Source: Saccharopolyspora gloriosae (GTDB taxonomy: Bacteria > Actinomycetota > Actinomycetes > Mycobacteriales > Pseudonocardiaceae). From it: DNA of 64,000 nucleotides. The translations under genes and the position numbers were made by a program. The notes under the pieces were generated by a model that was not told the origin of the DNA, did no database searches, and saw only the letters and a program-made list of their open reading frames with translations. Of this stretch, positions 2,447 to 63,722 are shown piece after piece. Each line of letters starts with the position of its first letter. Positions within the stretch are counted from its first letter, which is position 1. Where the stretch lies: assembly GCF_014203325.1 (NCBI RefSeq), contig NZ_JACHIV010000001.1:4155501-4219500 (forward strand). The letters run 5' to 3'.

Positions 2447-2611
2447 TGTCAGCGGCGAAGCCGCTGAGCAGTGACCACGCACGCAGCCCGACCACCCGCG
2501 GGTTCTCAGCGGGCTTCTCGCGAGGACAGCTTTTTCCCTCGTGGCGGAGCCACTTGGGAAAAAGATCCCGCAGCGAGAAGCCCGCTGAGGTTCCGCCACC
2601 CGGACACCTCG
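2447..2611 (+). repeat. Structured intergenic repeat, copy 1 (class A)
   Basis: Hairpin 1 is CAGCGGC/GCCGCTG (2450-2466). The main stem pairs 2505-2521 with 2573-2589 over 17 perfect base pairs. Nested inside are CTTTTTCCC (2530-2538) with GGGAAAAAG (2556-2564), and an apical GTGGC-GGA-GCCAC (2541-2553). It lies between the gntR stop and the allB promoter, antisense to both genes. Seven related copies occur in the window. Confidence 0.9.
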
Positions 2612-2628
2612 CCAAAGCAAGAACAAAT

Positions 2629-3288
2629 TCAGAACGTCATACGCTGCAGGACCATTGTTCGGCTTGCTTGGACATGGCGTTGCGCGACTTCCCACGCGCG
2701 GGCGCCGTCGCCCGCCGCGACCGCGGCGTAGAGCTCGTCGTGCTCGGCGCACACCCGCTCCGGCTCCGGGTTCACCCGGAACAACCACGCCAACCGGCCG
2801 TGCAGCGGTTCCAGCATCGACGTGAGGAGTTCGTTGCGGGACAACGCGATGACCTCGTCGTGGAACGCGGTGTTGGCCTCCGACATGGCGTCCACGTCCG
2901 ACGAGTCCAGCGCGGCGCGCGCCTGCGCGGCCAGCCGCCCCAGCCGCCCCACGTCGTCGGCGTCGCTGAGCTGCGCCGCGAGCTTCGCGGCCAGCGCCTC
3001 CAACGCCTCGCGGACGTCGAAGAGCTCTTCCAGCTGCCGCCGGTCCAGGCTCCGGACGAACACGCCGCGCCGCCGCGGCAGCACCTCGACCAGCCCCGCG
3101 CTCTGCAGCATCCGGATCGCTTCGCGGACGGGCACCCGGGACACGCCGAACTCCGCGGCGAGCTCCTGCTCGAACAGCCGGTCACCGGGACGGAGGTGAC
3201 CATCGCTGATCCGCGCCTGCAGCGTGCCGTACACCTGGTCGCGCAGCGGGACGCGCGCCTCCGCGTCCGGCTCTTCTGTCACAGGCAC
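2629..3288 (-). CDS. GntR-family (FadR/FCD type) regulator, probable allantoin/glyoxylate repressor
   Basis: The protein has an N-terminal winged helix (PLRDQVYGTLQARISDGHLRPGDRL, with the recognition-helix region FGVSRVPVREAIRMLQSAGLVEV) and an all-helical FCD ligand domain with the metal-binding-type pattern FHDEVIALSRN...LF. I chose GTG 3286-3288 because AGGAGG lies five bases before it; a longer frame back to 3384 adds 32 Gly/Ala/Arg-rich residues without a ribosome site. It lies 112 bp downstream of gcl, in the same direction, suggesting co-transcription and feedback. AllR in E. coli is IclR-type, so this is a different regulator doing an analogous job. Control of allB, hyi and the NCS1 permease is inferred from shared palindromes. 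Confidence 0.85.
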   Translation of the reverse strand: MPVTEEPDAEARVPLRDQVYGTLQARISDGHLRPGDRLFEQELAAEFGVSRVPVREAIRMLQSAGLVEVLPRRRGVFVRSLDRRQLEELFDVREALEALAAKLAAQLSDADDVGRLGRLAAQARAALDSSDVDAMSEANTAFHDEVIALSRNELLTSMLEPLHGRLAWLFRVNPEPERVCAEHDELYAAVAAGDGARAWEVAQRHVQASRTMVLQRMTF

Positions 3289-3400
3289 AAGTTCCTCCTC
3301 GCCGGCTGTGCCCACCAGCGTAAGGCGTCCTCCCGGCGTGATCCCCGCAGCGGGGCGGGCGCGGCCCGCGGGTGCGGTCACCACCCGCGGGCCGGGGAAC

Positions 3401-5101
3401 TCAGCCGAGCGGCACCTCCTCGGGTTCGATCATCGCGTCGATCCGGATGCCGCGCGGGGTGTTCGCCTCCCGTTCGATCATCACTTCGACCAGCACCGGG
3501 CGGCTCGTCGCCACGGCCTCCTTGCGGGCCCACTCGATCGTCGTCGCGAGCTCACCGGGTTCGAACACGCGCCGCCCGGAGCAGCCGTAGGCCTCCATCA
3601 CCTTGACGTTGTCGGTGCCGTGGGTGTCGTAGTGGATGTCGACCTCGGTGTTCATCTCGTACCCGAGTTCCGCCTGCCGGATCAGCCCGAGGTACTCGTT
3701 GTTCAACATGATGATCACGAACGGGATGTCGTACTGCGCGGCCACGGCCAGCTCCTCGACGAGGAACTGGAAGCCGTAGTCGCCGACGACCGCCGCCACC
3801 TCCGCGCCGGGCTCGGCGGACTTCACGCCGATGGCCGCCGGGATCTCCCAGCCGAGCGGGCCCGCCTGCCCGCACACCTGGTAGTGGCGGGGCTTGTGCG
3901 CGGTCTGGAACTGACCGGACCAGATCTGGTAGAGCCCGATCGCGGTGACGAAGTAGGTGTCCGGGTCGAACAGCGCGTTGATCTCCCGGAACACCCGCGG
4001 TGCCTTGATCGGCACCGCGTCGTAGTGGTCGGGCCTGGTCAACGTCCGCTTCAGCTCACCGACGCGCCCGGCCCACGAGCCGTAGCGCTTCGTCGGTCCG
4101 CGGCGCTCGACCGCCTCCAGCAGCGCCGTCAGGAACAGGCCCGTGTCGGACACGACGCCCAGGTCGGGCCCGAAGACCTTGCCGATCTGGGTCGGCTCGA
4201 TGTCGACATGGATGAACTTGCGCGCCCCGCGGTAGACCTCCAGCGCGCCCGTGTGCCGGTCGCCGAACCGCGCGCCGAGCGCCAGCACCAGATCGGATTC
4301 GAGGAACGATTCGTTGCCGTAGCGCTGGCTGGTCTGGATGCCGGTCATCCCCGCGAACAGCTCGTGGTCCTCCGGGAACGAACCCTTGCCCATCAGCGTG
4401 GTCTGCACCGGGATGCCGAGCCGCTCGGCGAGCTCGCGCAGCTGCTCGTGGGCGTCTCCCAGCAGGACCCCTCCCCCGGCCAGCAGCAGCGGCCGGTCCG
4501 CTTCGAGCAGCATGTCCAGCGCCTTCTCCACCCGTGGCGGGTGCGGGTGCACGGCGGCGACGGGCAGCGGCGCGTCGATCTCGGGGTCCCAGTCGATCTC
4601 CTGCTGCTGGACGTCCAGCGGCAGGTCGATCAGGACCGGTCCGGGACGTCCGGAGCGGGCGGTGCGGAACGCCTCCCGGAAGATCCACGGTGCTTGGGCG
4701 GCTTCCTTGACCTGCACCGCCCATTTGGTGACGGGCTTGGCGATCTCCACGATGTCGACCGCTTGGAAGGCCTCCTGGTGCAGCTTCGAGGACACCGCTT
4801 GGCCGGTGATGCACAGCATCGGGATGGAATCGGCCTGCGCGGTGTAGAGGCCGGTGATCATGTTCGTGCCCGCCGGGCCGGAGGTGCCGATGGCGACGCC
4901 GACGCGCCCGTTGGTCCGCGCCCACCCGTCGGCCATGTGGGTGGCGCCCTCCTCGTGGCGCACGATGAGGTGCTTGATGTCGCGGTGTTCCAGCGCCGCG
5001 TACAGCGGGAGGATCGCGGCGCCGGGACAACCGAACGCCGTGTCGACTCCCTCGGATTCCAGGACGTCGACCACAGCCTGCATGACAGGGACTTTGGGCA
5101 T
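3401..5101 (-). CDS. gcl: Glyoxylate carboligase-like thiamine-diphosphate enzyme (tartronate-semialdehyde synthase)
   Basis: A 566-residue ThDP enzyme expected to join two glyoxylates into tartronate semialdehyde and CO2. Typical Gcl stretches are present: GTSGPAGTNMITGLY, SIPMLCITGQA, FQAVDIVEIAKPVTKW, SGRPGPVLIDLP, HVDIEPTQIGKVFGPDLG, CGQAGPLGWEIPAA and the ThDP motif GDYGFQF...NNEYLGL. Start ATG 5099-5101 follows GAGAGGAA; a longer frame to 5143 lacks support. E. coli Gcl is unusual in carrying Val51 where other ThDP enzymes have the catalytic Glu; as I recall that sequence, the aligned residue here is Glu50 (VRHEEGATH). It therefore looks like a divergent Gcl clade. The neighbours glxR and hyi support the assignment. 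Confidence 0.85.
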   Translation of the reverse strand: MPKVPVMQAVVDVLESEGVDTAFGCPGAAILPLYAALEHRDIKHLIVRHEEGATHMADGWARTNGRVGVAIGTSGPAGTNMITGLYTAQADSIPMLCITGQAVSSKLHQEAFQAVDIVEIAKPVTKWAVQVKEAAQAPWIFREAFRTARSGRPGPVLIDLPLDVQQQEIDWDPEIDAPLPVAAVHPHPPRVEKALDMLLEADRPLLLAGGGVLLGDAHEQLRELAERLGIPVQTTLMGKGSFPEDHELFAGMTGIQTSQRYGNESFLESDLVLALGARFGDRHTGALEVYRGARKFIHVDIEPTQIGKVFGPDLGVVSDTGLFLTALLEAVERRGPTKRYGSWAGRVGELKRTLTRPDHYDAVPIKAPRVFREINALFDPDTYFVTAIGLYQIWSGQFQTAHKPRHYQVCGQAGPLGWEIPAAIGVKSAEPGAEVAAVVGDYGFQFLVEELAVAAQYDIPFVIIMLNNEYLGLIRQAELGYEMNTEVDIHYDTHGTDNVKVMEAYGCSGRRVFEPGELATTIEWARKEAVATSRPVLVEVMIEREANTPRGIRIDAMIEPEEVPLG

Positions 5102-5264
5102 GGTGTAGGAATTCCTCTCGGATGTGGCGCTTCGGACGCGCATCTGCCAGAACGGGTCGGCGGCACTGATCGCTTGGCGGCATTGGAGCCGCCGACTCGT
5201 TTCTCTTCTGTGCTGGTCGTGCTTCCGCTGCTCTGCGAGTTCGTGCGGATGGCGCCTGGTCCGT

Positions 5265-5425
5265 TTCTTGTCAGCGGCGGAGCCGCTGAGCAGTGACCAG
5301 CCAGAGCAAGGTGACCACCGGCGGGTTCTCAGCGGCTTCCTCGCGAGGACAGCGATTTCGCTGTGTATCGGACATACATCAGAAATCGATCCCGCAGCGA
5401 GGAAGCCGCTGAGGTTCCGCAGAGC
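5265..5425 (+). repeat. Structured intergenic repeat, copy 2 (class B)
   Basis: Hairpin 1 is CAGCGGC-GGA-GCCGCTG (5272-5288). The main stem pairs 5328-5344 with 5397-5413, perfect over 17 bp. The inner stem differs from class A: CGATTTC (5353-5359) with GAAATCG (5382-5388), and TGTAT...ATACA at the apex. It sits between glxR and gcl, antisense to both. Confidence 0.9.
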
Positions 5426-5449
5426 GACCCCCTACAAAAGCCATCGAAC

Positions 5450-6328
5450 TCAAGAGCGGCCGTTCAGCTGGGTGATCTGCTTCAGCAGGGCTGAGTGGTC
5501 GAGGGCGCCGTCACCTTGAGCCACAGAAGCGGCGACGAGTTGGGCGACCAGGGTGCCGAGGGGTGCGGTGAGGCCTGCTTCGCGGGCGGCGGCCTGCACG
5601 ATTCCCATGTCCTTGTGGTGCAGTTCGAGGCGGAAGCCGGGGCCGAACTCGCGGTCGCGCATCTTCGCGCCCTTGGCGTTGAGCACGCTGCTGCCCGCGA
5701 GGCCGCCGCCGAGCACGTCCAGTCCGGCCTCGGTGTCGACGCCGTGCGCCTCCAGGAACACCAGCGCTTCGGCGAGCAGGCCGATGTTGCCCGCGACGAT
5801 GAGCTGGTTGGCCGCCTTCACGGTCTGCCCGGCACCGGCCGGTCCGACGTGGACGATCGTGGCGCCGACGGCGCCGAGCACGTCCTCGGCGGCGGCGAAC
5901 GCGTCCGCCGCACCGCCGACCATGATCGACAGCGTGCCGTCGATCGCCTTGGGCTCGCCGCCGCTGACCGGCGCGTCGAGCGCCCGCACCTCCCGCTGCG
6001 CCGCGGCTTCGGCGACGCGGCGGGCGGTGTCGGGGCGGATGGTGCTGCAGTCGACGAGCAGCGCGCCCCGCTGCGCGTGGGCCAGCACGCCGTCCTCGCC
6101 GAGCACGACGGCTTCGACGTCCGGCGAGTCCGGCAGCATGGTGAACACGACCTCGGCGCCCGCGACCGCCTCGGCGACGCTGCTTGCGGCGGTGCCGCCG
6201 TCGGCGACCAGCTGGTCGACCTTGGCCCGGCTGCGGTTGTACCCGGCGACCTCGTGCCCGGCCGCGACCAGGTTGGCCGCCATCGGGCCGCCCATGATGC
6301 CCAGGCCGATGAATCCTATCTTGCTCAT
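5450..6328 (-). CDS. glxR: Tartronate semialdehyde reductase (2-hydroxy-3-oxopropionate reductase)
   Basis: A 292-residue beta-hydroxyacid dehydrogenase that reduces tartronate semialdehyde to glycerate with NAD(P)H. It has the N-terminal Rossmann GLGIMGGPMA, the substrate-binding DCSTIRPDTARR and DAPVSGGEPKA motifs, and the catalytic lysine K171 in GQTVKAANQ, followed by the all-alpha C-terminal domain with the HHKDMGI segment. Length fits GlxR/GarR. ATG 6326-6328 has GGGAGG upstream. It lies 38 bp downstream of hyi. A structured repeat of about 160 bp separates it from gcl, so the operon may be one transcript interrupted by that element or two. Confidence 0.92.
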   Translation of the reverse strand: MSKIGFIGLGIMGGPMAANLVAAGHEVAGYNRSRAKVDQLVADGGTAASSVAEAVAGAEVVFTMLPDSPDVEAVVLGEDGVLAHAQRGALLVDCSTIRPDTARRVAEAAAQREVRALDAPVSGGEPKAIDGTLSIMVGGAADAFAAAEDVLGAVGATIVHVGPAGAGQTVKAANQLIVAGNIGLLAEALVFLEAHGVDTEAGLDVLGGGLAGSSVLNAKGAKMRDREFGPGFRLELHHKDMGIVQAAAREAGLTAPLGTLVAQLVAASVAQGDGALDHSALLKQITQLNGRS

Positions 6329-6366
6329 CGTCGTGGTGCCTCCCTTTCCCTGCGGTGTGCTGCGGA

Positions 6367-7167
6367 TCAGCGCGCGAGCCAGCCGAAGCTGTCCGCGCTG
6401 GCCCCGCTCGGCTTGTACTCGAGGCCGAGGTACCCGGTGTATCCGGCGGCGTCGAGCGCGGCGAAGTAGTGGTCGAAATCGATGTCCCCGGTGCCCGGTT
6501 CGCCGCGGCCCGGGGCGTCCGCGATCTGCACGTGGCCGATGTCGTGCGCGCGCCGCTCGATCACCGCGTCGAGGTCGTCGCCGTTGACCGTCAGGTGGTA
6601 GAGGTCGAACAGCAGCCGCAGGTTGTCCACGCCGCCTTCCTCGTGCACCCGGTCGACGACCCGCAGCGCGTCCGCGGCCGTCAGCAGCGGGTAGGTCGGC
6701 ACGCCGCTGACCGGTTCGATGAGCACTCGCCCGTCGATGCGCGCGGTCGCCGCCGCCGCGCGGATGAGGTTCTCGGTCGCCACGTCGTCCTGTTCGGACG
6801 GTGCGACGCCGTCGATGCGGTTGCCGTAGAGCGCGTTGAACGCGCGGCAGCCGAGCCGGTCACCGATGCCGACGGCGACGTCGAGGTTGTCGAGGAACTC
6901 GCCGGCGCGCTTCGGGTCGGACAGCACGCCGCGCTCGCCGGACGGCAGGTCTCCGGCGAAGAAGTTCAGGCCCACCAGCGCGACGCCGGCGTCGGAGACG
7001 GCCCGCACGAACGCGTCGACCTCGCGATCCGAGGGCACCGCGGCCGGGAAGGGCCACCAGTACTCGACCGCGTCGAACCCGGCGGCCTTCGCCGCCGCGG
7101 GTCGCCGCAGCAGGTCGAGTTCGGTGAACAGGATCGAGAGGTTGACGTCGTACCGGACGGAACTCAA
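6367..7167 (-). CDS. hyi: Hydroxypyruvate isomerase
   Basis: A 266-residue TIM-barrel protein of the xylose-isomerase-like family that interconverts hydroxypyruvate and tartronate semialdehyde. Recognisable features are the N-terminal NLSILFTELDLLRRPAAAKAAGFDAVEYWWPF, the metal-ligand Glu in RVLIEPVSG, FDLYHL, GHVQIADAPGRGEPGTGDIDF and a final GYLGLEYKP carrying the second catalytic Glu. Start TTG 7165-7167 has GGGAGG five bases before it. It is the first gene of the leftward block hyi-glxR-(repeat)-gcl-gntR and has an AT-rich promoter with a TATACA -10 and a GATTTC/GAAATC palindrome. Confidence 0.92.
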   Translation of the reverse strand: MSSVRYDVNLSILFTELDLLRRPAAAKAAGFDAVEYWWPFPAAVPSDREVDAFVRAVSDAGVALVGLNFFAGDLPSGERGVLSDPKRAGEFLDNLDVAVGIGDRLGCRAFNALYGNRIDGVAPSEQDDVATENLIRAAAATARIDGRVLIEPVSGVPTYPLLTAADALRVVDRVHEEGGVDNLRLLFDLYHLTVNGDDLDAVIERRAHDIGHVQIADAPGRGEPGTGDIDFDHYFAALDAAGYTGYLGLEYKPSGASADSFGWLAR

Positions 7168-7184
7168 AGGAACCTCCCTCGATA

Positions 7185-7216
7185 GATTTCACATTGCGAA
7201 ATCTTTATTTTGTATA
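7185..7216 (-). promoter_or_regulatory. hyi promoter with GntR-type operator
   Basis: GATTTCACATTGCGAAATC (7185-7203) has perfect 6-bp arms and lies just downstream of a leftward -10 candidate TATACA (7211-7216), in an unusually AT-rich patch. The palindrome resembles those before allB and the NCS1 permease gene. Operator function is inferred. Confidence 0.55.
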
Positions 7217-7435
7217 GTGATAGATTAGCGAACGCGGTTTTGCCGGTCAACGCTTTTCAGCACACCGGGGAATGACGACATCGCCATCGGTGACACGTCG
7301 AGCCGCCGCAGCGACGAACCCAGAAGTCGTTGCGGTGCGGGAAGTTCACGGATCGACGCAGGACGAATGACCGTCCACTGTGGCCATGAATGGAATCGCG
7401 CGCGGCGCTCGCCACGGCCGGGCGCGCAGCGGAAC

Positions 7436-7464
7436 TGGCCGCACCGGGAATCCCGGTGCGGCCA
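7436..7464. terminator. Near-perfect 29-bp palindrome
   Basis: Arms 7436-7449 and 7451-7464 (TGGCCGCACCGGGA and its complement) are perfect over 14 bp around one central base. It lies beyond repeat copy 3, about 290 bp downstream of the racemase stop on the leftward strand. It could be a terminator without a U-tract or a cruciform/protein site; the rest of 7220-7490 shows nothing gene-like. Confidence 0.4.
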
Positions 7465-7489
7465 GCCGTGGACTCAGGGCCCGTTCAGA

Positions 7490-7690
7490 ATGATCTTTTG
7501 ATCGTCGTCTTGTCAGCGGCGGAGCCGCTGAGCAGTGACCAGCCAGAGCAAGACGACCACCGGCGGGTTCTCGGCGGCTTCCTCGCGAGGACAGCGATTT
7601 CGCCGTGTACGGCATACATCAGAAATCGCGATCACACCGGCAACGGACAGCGAGGAAGCCGCTGAGGTTCCGCTGAGCGACCCGCTACGC
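7490..7690 (+). repeat. Structured intergenic repeat, copy 3 (class B)
   Basis: Hairpin 1 is at 7514-7530. The main stem pairs 7570-7586 with 7650-7666 and has one G-U wobble in the forward-strand RNA. The inner stem is GCGATTTC/GAAATCGC, followed by an extra ATCACACCGGCAACGG segment shared only with copy 7. It starts with the family leader ATCTTTTGATCGTCGTC. It lies immediately downstream of the racemase gene, antisense to it. Confidence 0.9.
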
Positions 7691-7753
7691 AGGCCATTCG
7701 GAAAGGACCCCTTAGAATTCGCTTCCCCCTGCGCGGAAGCGGGCAGGACGATC

Positions 7754-8476
7754 TCAGGGGCGGGGCGGCCAGTTGGTCATCTTCTTGGGGCGCGGCGGGG
7801 CGTACGTCCGCACCTTCGACGTCGTCAGCCCCAGCCGGACGAGCGATTCCGCGATCGTCACCGCCGCCGTGACCCCGTCGACCACGGGCACCCCGGTGCG
7901 TTCCACCACGCGCTCGGCGAGCCCCGACATGCCGCCGCACCCCAGGCAGATCACCTCGGCCCGGTCGTCCTCCACCGCGCGCACCGCCTGCTCGGCGATG
8001 GCGTCGACGGCCGCCGCCGGATCGCGGTCCAGGTCCAGCACGGCCATGCCGCTCGCCCGCACCGACGCGCACCGGTCGCTGAGCCCCGCCGCGCTGAGCC
8101 GGTCCTCGATCAGCGGAACCGTGCGGTCCAGGCTGGTCACCACCGAGTAGGAGCGCCCGACGAACTGGGCGGTACTCGCGGCGGCCTCGGTGATGTCCAC
8201 GACCGGGACGTCGAGCAGCTCCTGCAGCCCTTCCCTGCCGTGCTCGCCGTACCCGGCTTGGATGACGGCGTCGAACGGTTCCGGGTAGGCCCGGACCGCT
8301 TCCATCACCGCGACCGCCGCGAGGTAGCTCTCGTAGTTGCCCTCCACGGATTCCGCGCCGAAGGACGGCGTCAGCGGCACGATCTCGGTGCCGGGGGCCG
8401 CGACGCCCGCGGCCTGCTCGCCGATGGACTCGGTGATGGTCGCGGTCGTGTTGACGTTGACGACGAGAATGCGCAC
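7754..8476 (-). CDS. Hydantoin/allantoin racemase family protein lacking the first catalytic cysteine
   Basis: A 240-residue Asp/Glu/hydantoin racemase-fold protein. Members that racemise allantoin or hydantoins use two cysteines, one in an A-C-F-G-D loop and one in L-G-C-x-G-M. Here the second is intact (C180 in CLGCGGM) but the first position is Gly75 (AGYGEHG). In arylmalonate decarboxylase, a fold relative, a Gly/Cys arrangement is used for decarboxylation instead of two-base racemisation. Location 39 bp downstream of the NCS1 permease and next to allB/allE supports a role in allantoin metabolism, but racemase activity is doubtful. Start GTG 8474-8476 with a GGAGGAG ribosome site. Confidence 0.7.
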   Translation of the reverse strand: MRILVVNVNTTATITESIGEQAAGVAAPGTEIVPLTPSFGAESVEGNYESYLAAVAVMEAVRAYPEPFDAVIQAGYGEHGREGLQELLDVPVVDITEAAASTAQFVGRSYSVVTSLDRTVPLIEDRLSAAGLSDRCASVRASGMAVLDLDRDPAAAVDAIAEQAVRAVEDDRAEVICLGCGGMSGLAERVVERTGVPVVDGVTAAVTIAESLVRLGLTTSKVRTYAPPRPKKMTNWPPRP

Positions 8477-8515
8477 GGTCCTACTCCTCCTCCAGCTGTG
8501 CCGGGCGTTCCCGGC

Positions 8516-9991: not shown

Positions 9992-10039
9992 CGAACCGCC
10001 TCCAAGCTTGCGCTCGATGTGTCCATGATGTGAGCCGAT

Positions 10040-10061
10040 GTTTCCGCTATGTGAAAGTATA
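10040..10061 (-). promoter_or_regulatory. NCS1 permease promoter with GntR-type operator
   Basis: GTTTCCGCTATGTGAAAGT (10040-10058) is a TTTC...GAAA palindrome overlapping a leftward TATACT -10 (10056-10061), the same arrangement as at allB. The 300-bp divergent region also carries a rightward TATACA (10237-10242) that could serve allE. Confidence 0.55.
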
Positions 10062-17869: not shown

Positions 17870-18078
17870 GAACTGATCTTTTAATCGTTGTCCTGTCAGC
17901 GGCGAAGCCGCTGAGCAGCGACCACCTACGCAGCCGGACCACCCGCGGGTTCTCAGCGGTTTCCTCGCGAGGACAGCTTTTTTCCTCGTGGCGGAGCCAC
18001 TTGGAAAAAAGATCCCGCAGCGAGGAAACCGTGAGGTTCCGCCACCCGACCCCTACTCACGCCGAGATCAAAGACGAA
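17870..18078 (+). repeat. Structured intergenic repeat, copy 4 (class A)
   Basis: Hairpin 1 is 17897-17913. The main stem pairs 17952-17968 with 18020-18035, with a changed pair (GGTTTCC/GGAAACC) and one missing base near the foot. The inner stem is CTTTTTTCC/GGAAAAAAG, with the apical GTGGC-GGA-GCCAC. Family leader GATCTTTTAATCGTTGTC and tail GAGATCAAAGAC are present. It lies between convergent genes. Confidence 0.9.
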
Positions 18079-30370: not shown

Positions 30371-30590
30371 TCTGATCTTGCCTCTCCAGGTGAGCGGCGT
30401 TCGTGGTCGTTGTCCTGTCAGCGGCGAAGCCGCTGAGCAGCGACCAGCTTGAGCAAGGTGACCACCGGCGGGTTCTCAGCGGCTTCCTCGCGAGGACAGC
30501 TTTTTTCCTCGTGGCGGAGCCACTTGGAAAAAAGATTCCGCAGCGAGGAAGCCGCTGAGGTTCCGCCACCCGACCCACTACGCAGGTCGT
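30371..30590 (+). repeat. Structured intergenic repeat, copy 5 (class A)
   Basis: Leader TCTGATCTTG at 30371, hairpin 1 at 30419-30435, and a 17-bp perfect main stem 30475-30491 with 30543-30559. The inner CTTTTTTCC/GGAAAAAAG and apical GTGGC-GGA-GCCAC are intact. It lies between the GH18 terminator and the convergent ABC exporter operon. Confidence 0.9.
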
Positions 30591-34345: not shown

Positions 34346-34381
34346 AGCACGGGTTCTCAGCGCCGTCTCGCGAGGACGGCG
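34346..34381 (+). repeat. Decayed partial copy of the structured repeat
   Basis: GCACGGGTTCTCAGC, then CGTCTCGCGAGGACGGC, match the left half of the family (gggttctcagc...tctcgcgaggacagc) but the right arm is missing. It lies about 75 bp before intact copy 6. Suggests repeated insertion or partial loss at the same place. Confidence 0.55.
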
Positions 34382-34422
34382 ACCCGTCGCGCTCCCGAGA
34401 GGAAGGGACCGACCACCTGTCT

Positions 34423-34633
34423 TCGATCTTGCCCTTCGTCGTTGTCCTGTCAGCGGCGAAGCCGCTGAGCAGTGACCAGCTTGAGCAAGCCGACCACCCG
34501 CGGGTTCTCAGCGTTCTTCTCGCGAGGACAGCTTTTTCCCTCGTGGCGGAGCCACTCGGGAAAAAGATCCCGCAGCGAGAAGAACGCTGAGGTTCCGCCA
34601 CCCGACCACCTCACCAGGCCGAGAACAAGAACA
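34423..34633 (+). repeat. Structured intergenic repeat, copy 6 (class A)
   Basis: Hairpin 1 is 34451-34467. The main stem pairs 34507-34523 with 34575-34591, perfect over 17 bp with a distinct sequence (GTTCTTCTCGC/GCGAGAAGAAC). The inner stem is CTTTTTCCC/GGGAAAAAG, with the apical GTGGC-GGA-GCCAC. It lies in a divergent intergenic region, so it is not confined to gene ends. Confidence 0.9.
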
Positions 34634-43921: not shown

Positions 43922-43982
43922 GATCCGAGCCTAGCGGTGCGCGGGCCCGCCGCCCACCGCGCGCGGGAAGTCCGCCACCGCG

Positions 43983-44232
43983 TGTCTTTGATCTTGTCTT
44001 TCCGGGTGGACGGCGTTGTTGGTCGTCGTCCTGTCAGCGGTGGAGCCGCTGAGCAGTGACCGGCCAGAGCGAGCCGGCACCGGCGGATTTTCAGCGGTTT
44101 CCTCGCGCGGACAGCGATGTCGCCGGGTAGGGACCTGCGTCGGAAATCGCGATCACACCGGCAACGGGCGGCGAGGAAGCCGCTGAGGTCCGCTGAGCGA
44201 CCCACCGCTCAAGCCGAGATCAAGAACACCGG
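43983..44232 (+). repeat. Structured intergenic repeat, copy 7 (class B)
   Basis: Leader TCTTTGATCTTG (43985) and tail GAGATCAAGAAC are complementary and may close the element. Hairpin 1 (44035-44051) and the main stem (44090-44106 with 44171-44187) carry three U-G pairs in forward-strand RNA. The inner segment is class B but weakened (GCGATGTC/GAAATCGC). It shares the ATCACACCGGCAACGG insert with copy 3. Divergent intergenic region. Confidence 0.85.
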
Positions 44233-53513: not shown

Positions 53514-53683
53514 CGGCCTCGCCACCGGCTGAGATCCGCGCCGCGCAAGCGCCTGGCCGCTCCCGAAAGGCGCCGAGCTCGGGCCTGGGACGCCCGGCTC
53601 TGCACCGAACAAGATCAAAGACGCGCGCCGAACGGCGTTCCCGCCGACTACCCTGGGCGGTACGACGATGAGGAACGGTGGCG

Positions 53684-55259: not shown

Positions 55260-55339
55260 CGCTCCACCGTAAGCCGGGCGCCTAGGACGAGTTGTATCCT
55301 CAGGTCCAGTTTTTAGTGCGCATCGTCCAGAGGAGCGCG

Positions 55340-56275: not shown

Positions 56276-56344
56276 CCGGTCACCGCCGCGCGTTCGGGCA
56301 CGCCGCCGGGGTTCCGCCGCCCGACGCGTCCGGAAACGAGCTCC

Positions 56345-57820: not shown

Positions 57821-57878
57821 CGTCGCGCAACCGACGCGGGAAGTTACCGCCGCGGAACGTGCAATCCGCCACAGTAGG

Positions 57879-57893
57879 CGTCCACTGTGGACG
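57879..57893. promoter_or_regulatory. Palindrome between two divergent MFS units
   Basis: CGTCCACTGTGGACG has perfect 7-bp arms. It lies 59 bp before the leftward MFS start and 39 bp upstream of the rightward -35, so it could serve both. The core CCACTGTGG also occurs at about 7374 and 20397. Confidence 0.4.
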
Positions 57894-57931
57894 AATCGGC
57901 GGCCCAGCCCGTGGTGGCCGACACGGAGTTG

Positions 57932-57960
57932 TTGACAGCGACCGGTCGCGTTCCTAGCGT
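57932..57960 (+). promoter_or_regulatory. Promoter of the leader peptide/MFS unit
   Basis: TTGACA (57932-57937), a 17-bp spacer, and TAGCGT (57955-57960). The GTG of the leader peptide begins six bases after the -10, at the expected transcription start, implying a leaderless message. The same geometry occurs before ssuD. Confidence 0.65.
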
Positions 57961-57966
57961 CGTCGC

Positions 57967-58044
57967 GTGCGAACGGTTCTGCTCACGACGCGTCACCACG
58001 TGGATCTGCTGCGGGTGACGTCGGCGAGCTGTCCACGCTCCTGA
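57967..58044 (+). CDS. Putative leader peptide (HVDL type) before the MFS gene
   Basis: A 25-residue peptide starting at GTG 57967, with the core R-H-H-V-D-L-L-R-V-T-S-A-S-C near its end. Short peptides with R-x-H-V-D-L-x-R-V and a late cysteine are recognised in actinomycetes as putative leader peptides ahead of sulfur and cysteine genes; I rely on recall for this. It ends 173 bp before the MFS start. In that space CACCCGCCG and CGGCGGGTG can pair, but I cannot define an attenuator. A similar peptide precedes ssuD at 63460, so the MFS may import a sulfur compound. Confidence 0.65.
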   Translation: MRTVLLTTRHHVDLLRVTSASCPRS

Positions 58045-58217
58045 CCGTCCCCTCGCACCCGCCGATCGACTCCGATCACCGCGATCCGAGCCGCCGCCGC
58101 GTCCCGCGCTGACCGCGGCCCACGATCCGGCCACCTCCGCGTTCCCGGATCGCCGCCCCGGCGGGTGCCGTTCGCGCCGCGCGCCGCGCGGTTCCGCCGC
58201 AGCCAGGAGCCCGCCCC

Positions 58218-59543
58218 ATGAGCACCGCCACGACCGAGCCGGCCGAGCACGGCTCGTCGGAGAAGAACGTCCGCACCGTCATCACGTCCAGCCTGATCGG
58301 CACGACGGTCGAGTGGTACGACTTCTTCCTCTACAGCACCGCCGCCAGCCTGGTGTTCGACAAGCTGTTCTTCCCCACGGCCGATCCGACGGTCGGCACG
58401 ATGCTGGCGTTCACCACGTTCTTCGTCGGCTTCGTCGCCCGGCCGCTGGGCGGCATCCTGTTCGGCCACATCGGCGACCGCATCGGCCGCAAGCGCACGC
58501 TGGTCACCACGATGATCGTGATGGGCCTGGCGACGGCCGCGATGGGCGCGCTGCCCACCTACGAGCAGGTCGGCATGTGGGCTCCGCTGCTGCTGGTGCT
58601 GCTGCGGCTGTTCCAGGGTCTCGCGATCGGCGGCGAGTGGGCCGGGGCGGTGCTGATGGCCGTCGAGTACGCGCCGCCGGGCAAGCGCTCGCTGTACGGC
58701 TCGTGGCCGCAGGTCGGCCTCGCGGTCGGGCTCGGGCTGGGCACCGGGTTGTTCGCGCTGCTGGGCAACGTGCTCGACGACGAGCAGTTCCTCGGCTACG
58801 GCTGGCGGATCGCGTTCGGGCTGAGCCTGGTGCTGGTGATCGTCGGCCTGGTGATCCGGCTGCGCGTCGCGGAAACCCCGGCGTTCCAGCAGATGCGGGC
58901 GTTGCAGGGCACCGCGCGCATCCCGTTCCTGGAGCTGTTCCGGGACCGCGTGAACCGCCGCAACACGCTGCTCGGGTTGCTGTCGCGCTGGTCGGAGGGC
59001 GCCGCGTTCAACACGTGGGCGGTGTTCTTCCTGACCTACGCCACCGGCACGCTCGGCCTGCCGCGCAACGACGTGCTGGTCGGCGTGATGGCGGCGGCCC
59101 TGGTGCTGGCGGTGCTGATCCCCGTCGTGGGGCGGCTCGGCGACCGGCATTCGCCGCGCACGCTCTACGCGCTGGGCTCGGCGCTGTTCGCGCTGTCGGT
59201 GTACCCGGCGTTCCTCGCGTTCCAGACGCGGAGCCCGCTGCTGACCGGGTTGGTCATCGTGCTGGTGCTCGGCGTGGTCCACTCGGTGATCTACGCGCCG
59301 CAGGGCACGTTGTACGCGCAGCTCTCGCCGGTGCGGCTGCGCTACACGGGGATGTCGTTCATCTACCAGTTCTCCGGCATCTACGCGTCCGGCCTGACGC
59401 CGCTGATCGTGACGGCGCTGCTCGCGGCCGGTGGCGGTTCGCCGTGGCTGGCCTGCGGCTACCTGGTGCTCACCGGTGTCATCGGCACCGTCGCGAGCCT
59501 GCTCATCCGCCGCGACGACCTGCACTTCGACACCACGAGCTGA
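58218..59543 (+). CDS. MFS transporter, metabolite:H+ symporter type, probably sulfur-regulated
   Basis: A 441-residue 12-segment carrier of the MHS type: SSLIGTTVEWYDFFLYSTAASLVFDKLFFP at the N-terminus, RPLGGILFGHIGDRIGRKRTL, RLFQGLAIGGEWAGAVLMAVEYAPPGKR, and ESP-free helix 6-7 loop. The family carries organic acids, betaines and sulfonium or sulfonate-like compounds. ATG 58218 with AGGAG 11 bases upstream. The 5' region holds a promoter and an HVDL-type leader peptide shared with ssuD, pointing to import of an organosulfur compound (inference). A hairpin follows the stop. Confidence 0.87.
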   Translation: MSTATTEPAEHGSSEKNVRTVITSSLIGTTVEWYDFFLYSTAASLVFDKLFFPTADPTVGTMLAFTTFFVGFVARPLGGILFGHIGDRIGRKRTLVTTMIVMGLATAAMGALPTYEQVGMWAPLLLVLLRLFQGLAIGGEWAGAVLMAVEYAPPGKRSLYGSWPQVGLAVGLGLGTGLFALLGNVLDDEQFLGYGWRIAFGLSLVLVIVGLVIRLRVAETPAFQQMRALQGTARIPFLELFRDRVNRRNTLLGLLSRWSEGAAFNTWAVFFLTYATGTLGLPRNDVLVGVMAAALVLAVLIPVVGRLGDRHSPRTLYALGSALFALSVYPAFLAFQTRSPLLTGLVIVLVLGVVHSVIYAPQGTLYAQLSPVRLRYTGMSFIYQFSGIYASGLTPLIVTALLAAGGGSPWLACGYLVLTGVIGTVASLLIRRDDLHFDTTS

Positions 59544-59547
59544 CGCG

Positions 59548-59581
59548 GCTCGGCCCCCAGTCGCGAAAGCAGGGGCCGAGC
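59548..59581. terminator. Bidirectional terminator hairpin
   Basis: GCTCGGCCCC (59548-59557) with GGGGCCGAGC (59572-59581), perfect over 10 bp, between the convergent MFS and DUF397 genes. Confidence 0.65.
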
Positions 59582-59597
59582 AACCGCTTCTCCGTGA

Positions 59598-59786
59598 TCA
59601 CTCGAAGCGATCAGTCCTGATGGCTTGCACGAACCGACCAAACACGGCGGGAGATACCCTCAAGATCGGAGAGCGGTCCCCCAGCTTGGAATCTCTGATC
59701 AGAGCGGCGCCACGTGCCCCTGATGTCTGCACGCATTGGCCACCTTGGGTCGAACGCGACGATTTTTTCCAGTTGTATCCGGACAT
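59598..59786 (-). CDS. DUF397 protein
   Basis: A 62-residue DUF397 protein: WKKSSRSTQGGQCVQTSG near the N-terminus and DSKLGDRSPILRVSPAVFGRFVQAIR at the end. DUF397 proteins in actinomycetes pair with Scr1/WhiJ-type HTH regulators. ATG 59784-59786 has AGGAGG five bases upstream. It lies 52 bp after a 71-residue protein of unknown type, in the same direction. A second DUF397 gene (60192) sits directly beside the regulator. Confidence 0.85.
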   Translation of the reverse strand: MSGYNWKKSSRSTQGGQCVQTSGARGAALIRDSKLGDRSPILRVSPAVFGRFVQAIRTDRFE

Positions 59787-59838
59787 CCACGCCTCCTTTC
59801 GATCACTCGAACTAACGCAGCCTTCTGACAGGGGCAGC

Positions 59839-60054
59839 TCAGCGGTTCGTCCGGATCCAGCGGCGAGCGCGGAGCTTGATGTCCTCGCCGCTGACCCACC
59901 CGGCGCTGACCGGGACGCGGGCGACCAGGCCGTGGTCGTGGTGCTCGTAGGTGCGATCACCGCTGAGGACCGCGATGTAGCCGTCCTTGCGCCCCCAGCG
60001 GAACGTGAGGTCGTGCGCCTCCTCGTAGTGCCACACACACGGCAACGTCGCCAT
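59839..60054 (-). CDS. Small protein of unknown function in the DUF397/Scr1 cluster
   Basis: A 71-residue protein starting MATLPCVWHYEEAHDLTF and containing GYIAVLSGDRTYEHHDHGLVARVPV. It has no membrane segment and no motif I recognise. ATG 60052-60054 follows AGAAGGGTC. It is the first gene of a leftward pair with a DUF397 gene, behind a GCTAG-rich operator nearly identical to that before the Scr1-type regulator. The shared operator implies it is part of the same system. Confidence 0.65.
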   Translation of the reverse strand: MATLPCVWHYEEAHDLTFRWGRKDGYIAVLSGDRTYEHHDHGLVARVPVSAGWVSGEDIKLRARRWIRTNR

Positions 60055-60116
60055 CGCACGACCCTTCTCACCCGTGGTAATCACTTTATGTGACCTTATA
60101 TCACGGAGAGTATCAG

Positions 60117-60135
60117 TAGCGACTAGCTTGCTAGC
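60117..60135 (-). promoter_or_regulatory. GCTAG operator before the small gene/DUF397 pair
   Basis: TAGCGACTAGCTTGCTAGC contains an inverted GCTAG/CTAGC pair. Eleven leading bases match the site at 61290 exactly. It is 63 bp upstream of the 71-residue gene. AT-rich sequence (TGATATAAGG) follows and may hold a -10. Confidence 0.55.
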
Positions 60136-60191
60136 CGTGGGGCGAGCGACGACGCGCCGCCCCGACAACCGGGGGCGGCGCGCTTCGCCAC

Positions 60192-60383
60192 TCAACGGTC
60201 GGCATACTCGCCCAGCTTGATCCCCTGGATGAATCGGCCGAATGCCCCATCCGACAACCGAAGCCACGGTCCCGCCGGATCCTTGGAGTCACGGATTACC
60301 GGGAACCCACCCCGTTCGGCGGTTTCCACGCAGTTGCTCGCCTGCGCACTTCGCGACGACTTCTTCCACTCCGTGTCAGACAT
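60192..60383 (-). CDS. DUF397 protein adjacent to Scr1-type regulator
   Basis: A 63-residue DUF397 protein: EWKKSSRSAQASNCVETAERGGFPVIRDSKDP...LRLSDGAFGRFIQGIK. ATG 60381-60383 follows GAGGAG; an in-frame GTG at 60398 would overlap the regulator stop. It starts 11 bp after the regulator gene, so the two are co-transcribed. In Streptomyces such pairs (WhiJ/AbaA type) influence development and antibiotic production; DUF397 partners are thought to modulate the HTH protein. Confidence 0.87.
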   Translation of the reverse strand: MSDTEWKKSSRSAQASNCVETAERGGFPVIRDSKDPAGPWLRLSDGAFGRFIQGIKLGEYADR

Positions 60384-60394
60384 GCCCCGGCTCC

Positions 60395-61249
60395 TCACTG
60401 ACGGCGATGAAACTCATCAGACAGTGTACGCACGAGCTCCAATGATTGATCAACATCCAATGCGGAATGCTGCAATTCGCTGAACATCCTGGACAGTTCT
60501 GACGTGTCCCTTGAATTGTCCACGATTCGACCGCTCAACGGAGTGTCGATGAATGCCATGTCAGCCGTGTTCGCCGGGAACCGGAGCACCGCGAACGAGC
60601 CCTGCGGACTCAGGTGAGCACCGGCCTCGAACGGCAGCACCCGAATGACGACGTTGTCCCGCTCCGCGTGCTCCAACAGGGCGTCCAGCTGCTGGCCCAT
60701 CACGCCGGCGTTGCCCCACAACCGATGCAGCGCTTCCTCTGCGATCACCGCCCGCACCACGAGCGGATCATCTCCGGACAGCCGCTCCTGCCGCCGCGCC
60801 CTCAGCTCCACCAAGTCCTCGATCTGCCCCTCGCCGAACGTCATCCGCCCGGCCTTGTGGATCTCGCGGGCATAATCGCGCGTTTGCAGCAGCCCAGGAA
60901 TGATCCCGAGCTCGAACGTGAACACCTCGATCGCTTCCTGTTCGAGCCCGATGAACGGCGAAAACCACTTCGGCAGGTCGAACGGGTCCCACCATTCCGA
61001 GTCCTTCTGAGTTTTCGCCGCCTCGCGCCGCAGATTTTCGGCGCGGTCCCGCGTCTCTTCGTCAACGCCGTACATGACGAGCAGATCCGCCAGCTCGCTG
61101 CGGTTCGTCTTGTAAAGACCGCGCTCCCAATGGCCGATCTTCGCGACCGAGCAGTCCAGGTGGGTGGCGGCCTGCTGCACCGTCACCTTCGCCGACTTCC
61201 GCAGATCGCGGATCAGCTTGCCCAGCGTGATCTGCCTTGCGTTCGACAT
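60395..61249 (-). CDS. Scr1-type HTH transcriptional regulator (XRE + DUF5753)
   Basis: A 284-residue protein with an N-terminal XRE HTH (ITLGKLIRDLRKSAKVTVQQAATHLDCSVAKIGHWERGLYKTNRSELADLLVMYGV) and a C-terminal DUF5753/Scr1 domain (WFSPFIGLEQEAIEVFTFELGIIPGLLQTRDYAREIHKAG...). It is annotated in relatives as an antitoxin-like regulator. I prefer ATG 61247-61249 to the in-frame 61261 start. A GCTAG operator at 61290 lies 41 bp upstream, and a similar one precedes the 71-residue gene, indicating a two-operon local regulon. Confidence 0.9.
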   Translation of the reverse strand: MSNARQITLGKLIRDLRKSAKVTVQQAATHLDCSVAKIGHWERGLYKTNRSELADLLVMYGVDEETRDRAENLRREAAKTQKDSEWWDPFDLPKWFSPFIGLEQEAIEVFTFELGIIPGLLQTRDYAREIHKAGRMTFGEGQIEDLVELRARRQERLSGDDPLVVRAVIAEEALHRLWGNAGVMGQQLDALLEHAERDNVVIRVLPFEAGAHLSPQGSFAVLRFPANTADMAFIDTPLSGRIVDNSRDTSELSRMFSELQHSALDVDQSLELVRTLSDEFHRRQ

Positions 61250-61289
61250 GCGCCACTCCACTTTCGCCCGATCAGGGGGGTACCGAGGC

Positions 61290-61307
61290 TAGCGACTAGC
61301 CGCTAGC
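61290..61307 (-). promoter_or_regulatory. GCTAG operator before the Scr1-type regulator
   Basis: TAGCGACTAGCCGCTAGC, with further CTAGC at 61318. The first 11 bases equal those at 60117-60127. Autoregulation by the downstream HTH protein is inferred. The site also lies upstream of the rightward small gene at 61375. Confidence 0.55.
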
Positions 61308-61374
61308 TTGCAAACCACTAGCCGATACGCAGAGTTTAAGAGTCGCTACCGAGAGTGCGAGGAGGTGGGCATGG

Positions 61375-61710
61375 GTGAGCTGGTACTCATCCACCGCGCC
61401 GGACGGCGTGGTCCACGTGATCGAAACCGGCACGAGCCGGAAAGCGTTGTGCGGACAGGTGATTCGCAGAGCTGCCACCCGCGGTGCGGCTTCCGGCCTG
61501 GACTGTGCGAGGGAGTCGCGCTACCGCCGCGATCGCTCGCGCTGCTCCGGATCATCCGCGAAACCGGCACCCCGTGGGCCTGCGGGCCCACCGACGGACG
61601 GTGGCATCGTCTCCAGCGGACTCATCGAGGGCCGCTGCGCTGCGTCTGCGGGCACCTCGTACACGGCCCGGCGCACCTGCGCCGGAGCCGCCCGAACGCG
61701 GGGCACCTAG
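61375..61710 (+). CDS. Hypothetical small protein, divergent from the Scr1-type regulator
   Basis: A possible 111-residue product from GTG 61375 behind GAGGAGGTGGGC. The first 35 residues (SWYSSTAPDGVVHVIE..ALCG) resemble small actinobacterial proteins often found near such regulators, while the rest is Arg/Ala/Gly-rich without a clear fold; a frameshift or a late stop may have extended it. The next 270 bp (61711-61980) hold nothing I can assign. Confidence 0.45.
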   Translation: MSWYSSTAPDGVVHVIETGTSRKALCGQVIRRAATRGAASGLDCARESRYRRDRSRCSGSSAKPAPRGPAGPPTDGGIVSSGLIEGRCAASAGTSYTARRTCAGAARTRGT

Positions 61711-61980
61711 GTCGCGCGCTCTGCCCGTCCGCGACGGGTGCGCTGCCGATCTTCGTCGCTTGAATTCCGCGCCACGGCGCGAAGAACTCCCGGCTCGTGG
61801 CACTCCCCCGCCTCCTCCGAGCGAGCCGGGAACCCGCCCGGTCCCGCCCCCGACACGGGCCGGGCGGAACCGGTCCCGCCGCTTCCGCGCCGACGCTGCC
61901 CCGGAACGGCAGCGCAGCGGCGGGATCTCCGGTCCGCACCCGAACTCACACCGGGTGCGGACCGGTTCCCCCTCAGGAGC

Positions 61981-63147
61981 TCAGGACGCGGCGGCGGGCT
62001 CCGGGGCACCGGCGAACGGGATGCTCTGGCCCGCGGGCTGCTCCGGGTTTCCGGGGTGGCTCCACAAGCCCTTGCGCTCCAGGATCGGCAGCACGCCCTC
62101 GCCGAACCAGTACGCCTCCTCCAAGTGCGGGTGGCCGGAGAGCACGAACTCGTCCAAGCCCAGCGCGGCGTACTCCTCGATGCGCGCGGCGACCTCCTCA
62201 TGACTGCCGACCAGCGCCGTCCCGGCACCGCCGCGCACCAGACCGACACCCGCCCACAGGTTCGGGTAGATCTCCAGGTCCGCCGTGGAACCGCCGTGCA
62301 GGTCCAACATCCGGCGCTGGCCCTCGGATTCGCTGCGGTTCAGGCCGCTCTGCACCTGCTCGATCGTCTTCGGGTCGATGGCGTCCAGCAGCCGCCGCGC
62401 CTCCGCCCACGCCTGCTCCGAGGTGTCCCGGCTGATCACGTGCAACCGGATGCCGAAGCGCGGCGTGCGGCCCTGCTCGGCGGCCAGCGACTTGATCCAC
62501 GCGATCTTCTCGGCGACCTTCGCGGGCGGCTCGCCCCACGTCAGGTACACGTCGGAGTGCTTCGCGGCCACGTTCCCGGCCGCGGGGGAAGATCCGCCGA
62601 AGTAGATGTCCGGCACCGGGTCCGGCGTGCGGGTCAGCTCCGCGCCCTCCACGCGCACGTGATCGCCGCTGAAGTCGACGCGCTCACCGCGCCACAACGC
62701 GCGCACCACGTGCAGGAACTCGTCGCAACGCGCGTACCGGCCCTCCTTGTCCAGGAAGTCGCCGTAGGCGCGCTGCTCGTGGCTCTCCCCACCGGTGACC
62801 ACGTTGAGCAGCAACCGCTTGCCCGAGTGCCGCTGGAACGTCGCGGCCATCTGCGCGCCCAGCGTCGGCGACAGCAGACCCGGGCGGAACGCGACGAGGA
62901 ACTTCAGCCGCTCCGTCGACTCGGCGAGCATCGCCGTGGACAGCCACGCGTCCTCGCACCACGCGCCCGTCGGCGTCAGCGCCCCCTCGAAACCGAGCTG
63001 CTCGGCGCTGCGCGCGATCTGGCCCAGGTACTGCAACGTCGCAGGGCGAGCACCCGCCGCGGTCGAAGTCGCGACGCCGTGACCACCGCCGACGAGGTAG
63101 CGGCTGTCGCCGTAGGTGGGCAGGAACCAGTGGAACGTGAGCGACAT
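61981..63147 (-). CDS. ssuD: FMNH2-dependent alkanesulfonate monooxygenase
   Basis: A 388-residue LLM-class protein closely matching SsuD: SLTFHWFLPTYGDSRYL, TPTGAWCEDAWL, YLTWGEPPAKVAEKI, RFGIRLHVISRDTSEQAW, SPNLW-type segment YPNLWAGVGLVRGGAGTALVGS, and LSGHPHLEEAYWFGEGVLP. It would release sulfite from alkanesulfonates using reduced FMN from a separate reductase (ssuE), not present here. No ssuABC transporter is adjacent. ATG 63145-63147 is chosen; the long upstream frame is spurious. An HVDL-type leader peptide with its promoter lies about 240 bp upstream, consistent with control by sulfur supply. Confidence 0.93.
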   Translation of the reverse strand: MSLTFHWFLPTYGDSRYLVGGGHGVATSTAAGARPATLQYLGQIARSAEQLGFEGALTPTGAWCEDAWLSTAMLAESTERLKFLVAFRPGLLSPTLGAQMAATFQRHSGKRLLLNVVTGGESHEQRAYGDFLDKEGRYARCDEFLHVVRALWRGERVDFSGDHVRVEGAELTRTPDPVPDIYFGGSSPAAGNVAAKHSDVYLTWGEPPAKVAEKIAWIKSLAAEQGRTPRFGIRLHVISRDTSEQAWAEARRLLDAIDPKTIEQVQSGLNRSESEGQRRMLDLHGGSTADLEIYPNLWAGVGLVRGGAGTALVGSHEEVAARIEEYAALGLDEFVLSGHPHLEEAYWFGEGVLPILERKGLWSHPGNPEQPAGQSIPFAGAPEPAAAS

Positions 63148-63385
63148 CAGACGTCTCCGAGGTGTGGGTGGGGGAACGAGCGGGCAGTGGAGCCGGAGTG
63201 CGGCGAGGTCGCGACCTCGCGGCGCGAATCGATCCGCCGGCCTGCCGCGAGGCCGGATCTCCTCGCGGGCAGGCGAATCCGCGGAGCGGGTCCGCAGCCG
63301 AACGCGGGCGGGTCGACCGCCACCGATCGGGCTCAGGCGGTCAGGAAGCCAAGAGGTCGCGGACGGGCCTCTGCGGGGCCGAACG

Positions 63386-63460
63386 TCAGCGGCGACAGCG
63401 CTGCGCCGCGACGCGCACGAGATCAACGTGGCGACGTCGGGTCAGCAGCGGCAACAACAC
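63386..63460 (-). CDS. Putative leader peptide (HVDL type) before ssuD
   Basis: A 24-residue peptide from GTG 63458-63460 with core R-R-R-H-V-D-L-V-R-V-A-A-Q-R-C. It starts six bases after the -10, so the message is probably leaderless. The 5' position and late cysteine resemble the peptide before the MFS gene at 57967. Translation-coupled attenuation responding to cysteine or sulfur is inferred. The space to ssuD (63148-63385) has no other gene. Confidence 0.7.
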   Translation of the reverse strand: MLLPLLTRRRHVDLVRVAAQRCRR

Positions 63461-63466
63461 CCGTCC

Positions 63467-63495
63467 ATCCGAACAAAGCCCCCCACCACTGTCAA
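63467..63495 (-). promoter_or_regulatory. Promoter of the leader peptide/ssuD unit
   Basis: Leftward TTGACA (63490-63495), a 17-bp spacer, and TCGGAT (63467-63472), with GTG six bases on. The -35, spacing and start geometry equal those of the promoter at 57932. The TCGGAT hexamer is a weak -10. Confidence 0.55.
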
Positions 63496-63520
63496 TGTGA
63501 GTTCTTGCGGGGGTCCGCGA

Positions 63521-63722
63521 GGGCTTGGCCGGTGGTCGGGTGGCGGAACCTCAGCTGTCTTCTCGCTGCGGGATCTTTTTCCCAAGTGGCTCCGCCACGA
63601 GGGAAAAAGCCGTCCTCGCGAGAAGACACCTGAGAACCCGCCGGTGGTCGGCTTCTCGACGTGGGCTATTCGCTTCGCGAATCAGGCACGGCCTTCGGCC
63701 GCGAGGATTCGGCTTCGCCGGT
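63521..63722 (-). repeat. Structured intergenic repeat, copy 8 (class A, inverted)
   Basis: The only copy in reverse orientation. The main stem pairs 63550-63566 with 63618-63634, with one mismatch and a distinct sequence (TGTCTTCTCGC/GCGAGAAGACA). The inner CTTTTTCCC/GGGAAAAAG and apical GTGGC hairpin are intact. In place of hairpin 1 there are three small TTC-loop hairpins (63667-63721), for example ATTCGC-TTC-GCGAAT. It lies between the abc-f stop and the ssuD promoter. Confidence 0.85.

Follow-up and report, generated by a model that had tools for sequence, protein, structure and literature searches.

Why do intergenic repeats with different stem sequences share one fold, and what spread them along a chromosome? 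The question is raised by a 64,000-nt stretch of Saccharopolyspora gloriosae DNA (hereafter the window), which corresponds to G000:4155501-4219500 in the 6.83-Mb single contig of the source genome G000. An initial annotation had located eight copies of a structured repeat in the window, at about 2.5, 5.3, 7.6, 17.9, 30.5, 34.5, and 44.1 kb on the forward strand and at 63.6 kb on the reverse strand. All eight were confirmed, and a ninth, half copy was found at 34351-34386. Small bacterial repeats are often dismissed as inert debris, and structured ones often have no known mover or strand. We regard it as probable that the repeats described here resemble miniature inverted-repeat transposable elements (MITEs), being non-autonomous and moved in trans by IS5-family (IS1031-like) DDE transposases, with a core kept for pairing on one strand.

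The core is 111–124 nt long in the eight window copies. It is composed of a stem P1 (GCGG/CCGC), a symmetric GTT/GTT internal loop, a 17-bp stem P2, an asymmetric loop (GAGGACAG/ATCCCG.AG), a stem P3, and a small P4 hairpin. P2 is variable in sequence, and the two loops are near-invariant. Two window copies folded as RNA have z scores of -5.8 and -5.3, with none of 200 shuffles as good. Across the eight window copies, 11 of the 39 pairs are changed on both sides and 95.5% of the cells are paired; the covariation score is 0.264, compared with 0.110 upon shuffling (0/500) and at most 0.113 with slid partners. We then inspected a MAFFT alignment of 48 copies, hand-picked for diversity to represent 14 of the 15 matching genera plus two named records. 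Here 24 of the 35 pairs are changed on both sides (297 cells versus 96.9 in shuffles), and the covariation score is 0.462 versus 0.139 for shuffled and at most 0.103 for slid partners, which bears out the earlier statement that both main-stem arms change together. Overall, 95.4% of the cells pair (P2 99.5%, P3 86.6%, P4 88.9%), percentages that are raised by the omission of decayed or insert-bearing copies; the gatB orthologue L294 (G165) is likewise left out. RNAalifold returned a nearly identical fold from this alignment. In a model-free test, arms were extracted from 130 of 151 copies (the other 21 gave none), yielding 87 unique pairs. Arms of the same copy are 89.3% Watson-Crick paired, as opposed to 65.7% when arms are re-dealt among copies (1000 shuffles, maximum 69.0%).

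The repeat is found in 77 of 297 genomes and in 15 of the 46 genera of the family. The first search, of 41 genomes, included 16 from the order's other families, and none of these had a match. In 7 of 80 loci, each spanning about 20 kb, the carrier has a name: Saccharopolyspora hirsuta, S. shandongensis, S. elongata, S. rosea, S. spinosa, Actinopolyspora righensis, and A. alba. In genus g50, five species have a copy at the gatB 3′ end; a family search identified GatB in L287, and the other four loci were assigned via flanks of 91–94% identity. Three of these genomes (G087, G114, and G134) have no other match, where a match means E 0.001 or better, so that decayed or core-less copies may escape. 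Among the three single-match copies, 2, 4, and 6 P2 pairs are changed on both sides with pairing kept, 0–2 are changed on one side, and none is broken. Adding the gatB copy L285 from G179, a genome with four matches, leaves the range unchanged. Copying from other repeats is therefore an unlikely cause of the compensated changes. Taken together, the arm test, the 48-copy alignment, and the single-match gatB loci agree with the initial annotation in favouring selection on pairing over recent copying alone, and these sequence comparisons support a fold kept by such selection beyond shared ancestry.

The mismatches also differ between the two strands. In P2 of the 48-copy alignment there are 43 G.U versus 2 A.C cells, and over all 35 pairs 51 versus 10; all aligned copies were first detected by a model that permits G.U. 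The extracted arms give 67 G.U versus 9 A.C in 81 arm pairs, a count that leans toward G.U because these 81 are the part of the 87 passing a filter that treats G.U as paired. As the sequences are related, p values on these and related counts are not true probabilities. The large excess of G.U indicates that the selected fold belongs to one strand, the strand as originally written. The simplest reading is that the folded molecule is RNA; alternatively, it may be strand-specific single-stranded DNA.

The copies come and go between close relatives. Those at 7.6 and 17.9 kb in the window are missing in G001 and G002, three copies of G002 are missing in both G000 and G001, and at two places a relative holds the element in the opposite orientation. 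Two types of terminal inverted repeat (TIR) were recognized, type A (GGGGTCCTTTCAGAATGA-like) and type B (GCCTGTCTTTGATCTTGG-like); the TIR patterns match 83 and 33 times, as opposed to 1 and 0 for reversed-pattern controls. Of the 18 inverted TIR pairs examined, 10 are type B and 8 are type A. Nine of them enclose the core and span 216-242 bp, and the other nine are core-less and span 61-150 bp.

Each end type has a counterpart in an insertion sequence (IS). The type A end also terminates a 908-bp IS5-family element of G002, which encodes a 280-aa transposase (NF033580) and has TTA duplicated within C-TTA-G in all four copies. The type B end is the end of an IS in G018, where identical TNA flanks were seen in four of the five copies looked at, out of ten. 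IS5-family elements of the IS1031 subgroup are reported to prefer TNA targets (PMC12016507). Because the two end types match transposase-bearing elements of relatives, we read the repeats as moved in trans by different IS5-family transposases. In G000 itself, the relatives of the type A transposase are all more distant (at most 70%) and are read in two overlapping frames; they may be broken or frameshifting. No type A end motif was found at the nearest of them. No autonomous core-bearing element was seen, in that no inverted TIR pair 1-3 kb apart occurs in G000 among the matches listed, and half-element models returned decayed or short copies only. The earlier observation that no transposase lies near any copy holds for the 25 window open reading frames tested beside or near copies, several of which are spurious frames. 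The possibility that the copies are remnants of one known transposon is borne out in part: they are non-autonomous and a subset has IS5-type ends, but at least two end types surround one core. At one locus (L152 in G018, at about 385.9 kb), a copy of the type B IS has jumped into the main stem of a repeat at C-TCA-G, and this repeat has CTNAG sites on both main-stem arms.

The features of the window are as follows.

2449..2467, + strand: hairpin 1 of copy 1 (TCAGCGGC-GAA-GCCGCTGA)
2493..2604, + strand: structured core of copy 1 (main stem, internal loops, inner stems), 3′ end toward the stop of a GntR-family gene (2629..)
5316..5428, + strand: core of copy 2 with a GATTTC-type inner stem, antisense, between an NAD_binding_2 gene and a TPP-enzyme gene
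7480..7494, + strand: left TIR of copy 3, type A, 2 mismatches
7558..7681, + strand: core of copy 3 with a 13-nt insert, absent in G001 and G002
17940..18050, + strand: core of copy 4 with one base of the 3′ arm missing, at a convergent site, absent in G001 and G002
30463..30574, + strand: core of copy 5, at a convergent site, with a diverged element at the equivalent place in G001 and G002
34351..34386, + strand: ninth, half copy (5′ arm side only), absent from the earlier list
34417..34431, + strand: left TIR of copy 6, type B, 1 mismatch
34495..34606, + strand: core of copy 6, flanked by a divergent gene pair and one of the exceptions to the stop-codon rule described below
43982..43996, + strand: left TIR of copy 7, type B, 1 mismatch
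44078..44201, + strand: core of copy 7 with a 13-nt insert, starts on both sides, an exception
63535..63646, - strand: core of copy 8 with a type II 5′ part and another hairpin 1, 3′ side toward a start, an exception

The core is thus shared by all eight full copies, as had been claimed, but hairpin 1 is different in the 63.6-kb copy, which also has one main-stem mismatch. The claimed change of inner stem also stands, with a CTTTTT.. type in five copies and a GATTTC-like type in three, and with the correction that two of the GATTTC-like copies carry a 13-nt insert. No gene was called across the window copies by our home-made gene scorer. Copy 2 is located between genes that we name glxR-like (NAD_binding_2) and gcl-like (TPP enzyme); the TPP-enzyme protein (3401-5143) is closest to named Saccharopolyspora species, with 87% identity. 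At the copy 2 site, G001 has a short form only and G002 has a reversed copy. At the place of copy 6, G001 has a reversed, diverged element; the gap at the place of copy 7 is far shorter in G001 and G002; and at the place of copy 8 an element is present in G001. A lone type B terminal repeat with 2 mismatches lies at 53610-53624 on the reverse strand of the window, with no core nearby.

We then inspected the genes that flank the repeats, as called by the same uncurated scorer. In a sample mixed from several genomes (the 88 copies with an nhmmer score of 50 or more, out of 98 kept), the 3′ side faces a stop codon in 66 copies and the 5′ side in 52. The stops on the 3′ side are usually close and, for 63 of the 66, are TGA in 50 cases, TAG in 12, and TAA in one. 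In G018, for which 65 of 77 places among the matches listed (121 in total) were sampled, the 3′ side faces a stop in 58 copies, 47 of them within a 40-nt range, and the 5′ side in 40. A copy with its 3′ side toward a stop runs antisense to the gene concerned. This stop-codon rule is obeyed by five of the eight window copies; starts face the copies at 34.5 and 44.1 kb from either side, and a start faces the 3′ side of the 63.6-kb copy. The repeats occur in all four gene contexts. On one strand, the C-TNA-G target of the IS elements contains TGA or TAA, which probably explains the short distance to the stop codon.

In some genomes, orientation is also related to the replication fork. The G018 contig starts at dnaA, and 52 of the 65 sampled copies point against the fork. 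At convergent sites the figure is 28 of 34, and there the direction of the genes does not by itself set orientation. The genes beside the copies in this genome are 128 leading and 84 lagging. In G017, the contig of which also starts at dnaA, 18 of 20 copies among the matches listed (46 in total) point against the fork. One reading is that copies with the stronger-folding strand on the lagging template would be lost over time.

These observations can be arranged into a series of steps. Copies are present in one close relative and missing in another, as the empty sites show. The movers would be supplied in trans, since each end type, in the subset of copies having it, matches an IS5-family element of a relative whose transposase gene is open. 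Insertion would occur at C-TNA-G with a 3-bp duplication, which is seen for the IS elements and hinted at for the repeats; TNA reads TGA or TAA on one strand, and an insertion into a stop codon would rebuild the stop harmlessly. The core itself evolves by compensated changes while its loops stay near-invariant, and in most of the copies examined the G.U-tolerant strand is antisense to the gene whose stop adjoins the copy. Finally, the core may act as RNA within antisense transcripts that enter the 3′ end of that gene, ending or blocking them, and may thereby be tolerated or retained where leading-strand genes end. This last step, an antisense RNA role near gene 3′ ends, is put forward tentatively, at less than even chances. 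It fits the enrichment of antisense transcription at gene 3′ ends reported for S. erythraea (PMC3610266), an enrichment not linked to these repeats. Should the RNA role fail, the fold would serve the movement of the element itself.

Several observations weigh against this account. Matching TNA flanks were seen by eye in only about 3 of the 18 repeat TIR pairs; many copies, including the type II copies with hairpin arrays, have no clear TIR pair; and the repeats and the IS elements have only their ends in common. In some copies the left TIR directly abuts hairpin 1, leaving scant room for a promoter. The start of the 5′ neighbour faces the copy in 31 of the 88 mixed and 24 of the 65 G018 copies, where no known gene would transcribe the paired strand. 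The gatB orthologue L294 has 3 mismatches beside 12 Watson-Crick pairs and 1 G.U among 16. Orientation is weak or flat in G000 (93 of 150 among the matches listed, with the origin not located) and in G005 (14 of 24 among the matches listed, 44 in total), the latter showing no bias against the fork. Lastly, Y1 (HUH) transposases are present in 4 of 10 carriers (G004, G005, G010, and G017) as opposed to 3 of 31 non-carriers among the genomes first surveyed (Fisher p 0.047), a weak association.

What, then, is the fold for? In a purely selfish element, a transposase or a host protein would bind the fold, as single-stranded DNA or RNA, as a cis signal for movement, and the fold would do nothing for host genes. 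Such an element would be mobile, multi-copy, and found in all four gene contexts, and would leave short core-less derivatives that retain the ends. All of this is seen, and multi-copy structured motifs are interpreted in this way in PMC11109978. Against it, the gatB core is kept by compensated changes in three single-match genomes, and ends without a core are present at 9 of 18 places, so that the core appears unneeded for spread unless it was deleted in place. We consider the selfish fold somewhat unlikely and rank the RNA role just ahead of it. Alternatively, a functional structured RNA, retained as the only matching copy at the gatB 3′ end in species of one genus, may have repeatedly gained IS5-type ends in relatives and become a mobile RNA cassette with hundreds of copies, carried by different insertion sequences and acting antisense at gene 3′ ends; this is unlikely in our estimation. 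The placement close behind stop codons and the very stable stem would suit a terminator, or a stabiliser of the mRNA 3′ end, acting on the sense strand of the gene whose stop adjoins the copy. On that strand, however, the main stem has 43 A.C and 2 G.U cells, and pairing is hence not kept there; copies also lie within likely operons (benB-like/benC in three species of one genus, and glxR-like/gcl-like in the window), so we hold this explanation to be distinctly doubtful.

Two further explanations account for the arms or the spread without a selected fold or an IS5-type mover. Template correction, in which one arm templates the other at replication, would match the arms of long inverted repeats without any function, and many G000 copies do have perfect arms. 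Such a process is blind to the features seen here, namely that the GTT/GTT and GAGGACAG/ATCCCG.AG loops are near-invariant while the surrounding stems change, and that G.U exceeds A.C by 43 to 2 in the main stem; we deem it very improbable. A Y1 HUH transposase could have moved the repeats as single-strand elements of the kind formed by repetitive extragenic palindromic (REP) sequences with their REP-associated tyrosine transposases (RAYTs), or of the IS200/IS605 kind (palindrome-associated transposable elements, PATEs). The hairpins near the ends, the against-fork bias in two genomes, the small palindromic short forms, and the Y1 association given above are in line with this. However, six carriers lack the Y1 transposase (G000-G003, G018, and G019), at least 92 matches being present in five of them, and the ends match DDE-type IS5 elements. 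A Y1/HUH origin was thus put aside, with Y1 absent in 6 of 10 carriers though present in four, and we give it the lowest probability of all.

The MITE-like reading is the one carried forward in comparing the repeats with known systems. MITEs with IS5 ends are already known, and the repeats resemble those of the IS1031 subgroup in being short, without an open reading frame, bordered by TIRs of a full IS in a relative, polymorphic in insertion, and associated with a C-TNA-G target, as seen for the matching IS. They differ in that none of the IS elements examined shows the interior, one core has at least two kinds of ends, and this core is structured, strand-specific, and kept over many genera. 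ERIC, BOX, and RUP are likewise intergenic, structured, non-autonomous, and present in tens to hundreds of copies, with other sequences and hosts. REPs and bacterial interspersed mosaic elements (BIMEs) with RAYTs are similar as small palindromes near gene ends; the short forms of our repeat look like REPs, but six of the ten carriers lack the Y1 transposase expected of a REP/RAYT system. Type II copies (L010, L011, L015, L018, L020, L022, and others) have arrays of small, different hairpins (GCGGCGAAGCCGTGCCT-like) upstream of the core, which apparently are a separate REP-like family joined to it. In a comparison with integron attC sites, GTTC was seen by eye to be repeated in direct, not inverted, orientation. 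Rfam gave no match in the window; one window copy and one distant copy have weak hits far below the gathering scores. A class of structured motifs that occur in many copies and are judged mobile is already known as mobile/repeat sequence candidates (MRSC; PMC11109978). MRSC-65-2, for instance, is also multi-copy, structured, covarying, and judged selfish there; by its description in that source, it has a single long stem and a conserved UYCCGG repeat and occurs in diverse phyla, whereas our repeat combines GGUUC loops with an asymmetric inner loop, has a 5′ hairpin set apart from the core, and is confined to one family among the genomes searched.

The literature searched returned no paper joining Saccharopolyspora with "miniature inverted-repeat" or Pseudonocardiaceae with "repetitive extragenic palindromic", and no title on the repeat. 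One deeply kept strand-specific fold with different IS ends and a stop-codon placement was not found described there. A single family here joins matching transposases, empty sites in relatives, and a probable cause of stop-codon placement, and adds to these a strand-resolved selected fold and single-match genomes keeping that fold at one gene. Whether the fold of a mobile repeat serves the host or the element hence becomes directly testable.

Further g50 copies were noted at a ben locus. In L291 the copy lies behind a benB-like gene and before benC, antisense to both, and the flanks of L304 and L309, from two further g50 species, match those of this locus. The cores of L304, L309, and L297 have an extra block of about 51-56 nt with a common stretch (GGTGGTCGGGCTGGCGGG), which the orthologous copy L291 lacks.

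As for copy number, the covariance model built from the repeats, as the initial annotation had suggested, returned at least 150 copies of the 112-nt core in G000 besides the matches in relatives given above. A 14-mer allowing at most 2 mismatches occurs at 527 places in G000, versus 119 for the reversed control, so that G000 probably has about 400 copies. The expectation of hundreds in the genome is hence upheld, but that of one copy per 8 kb fails across the 344 kb examined, as the copies are clustered. The first 236 kb (G000:3915501-4151696) is free of cores, and the adjoining 106 kb or so holds 14. The exact 14-mer matches listed, covering 5 Mb, are all forward; the idea of a polarised repeat was ruled out, with covariance-model matches on both strands. 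The core-free 236 kb (L108-L118 and L085) has one decayed left part of the repeat.

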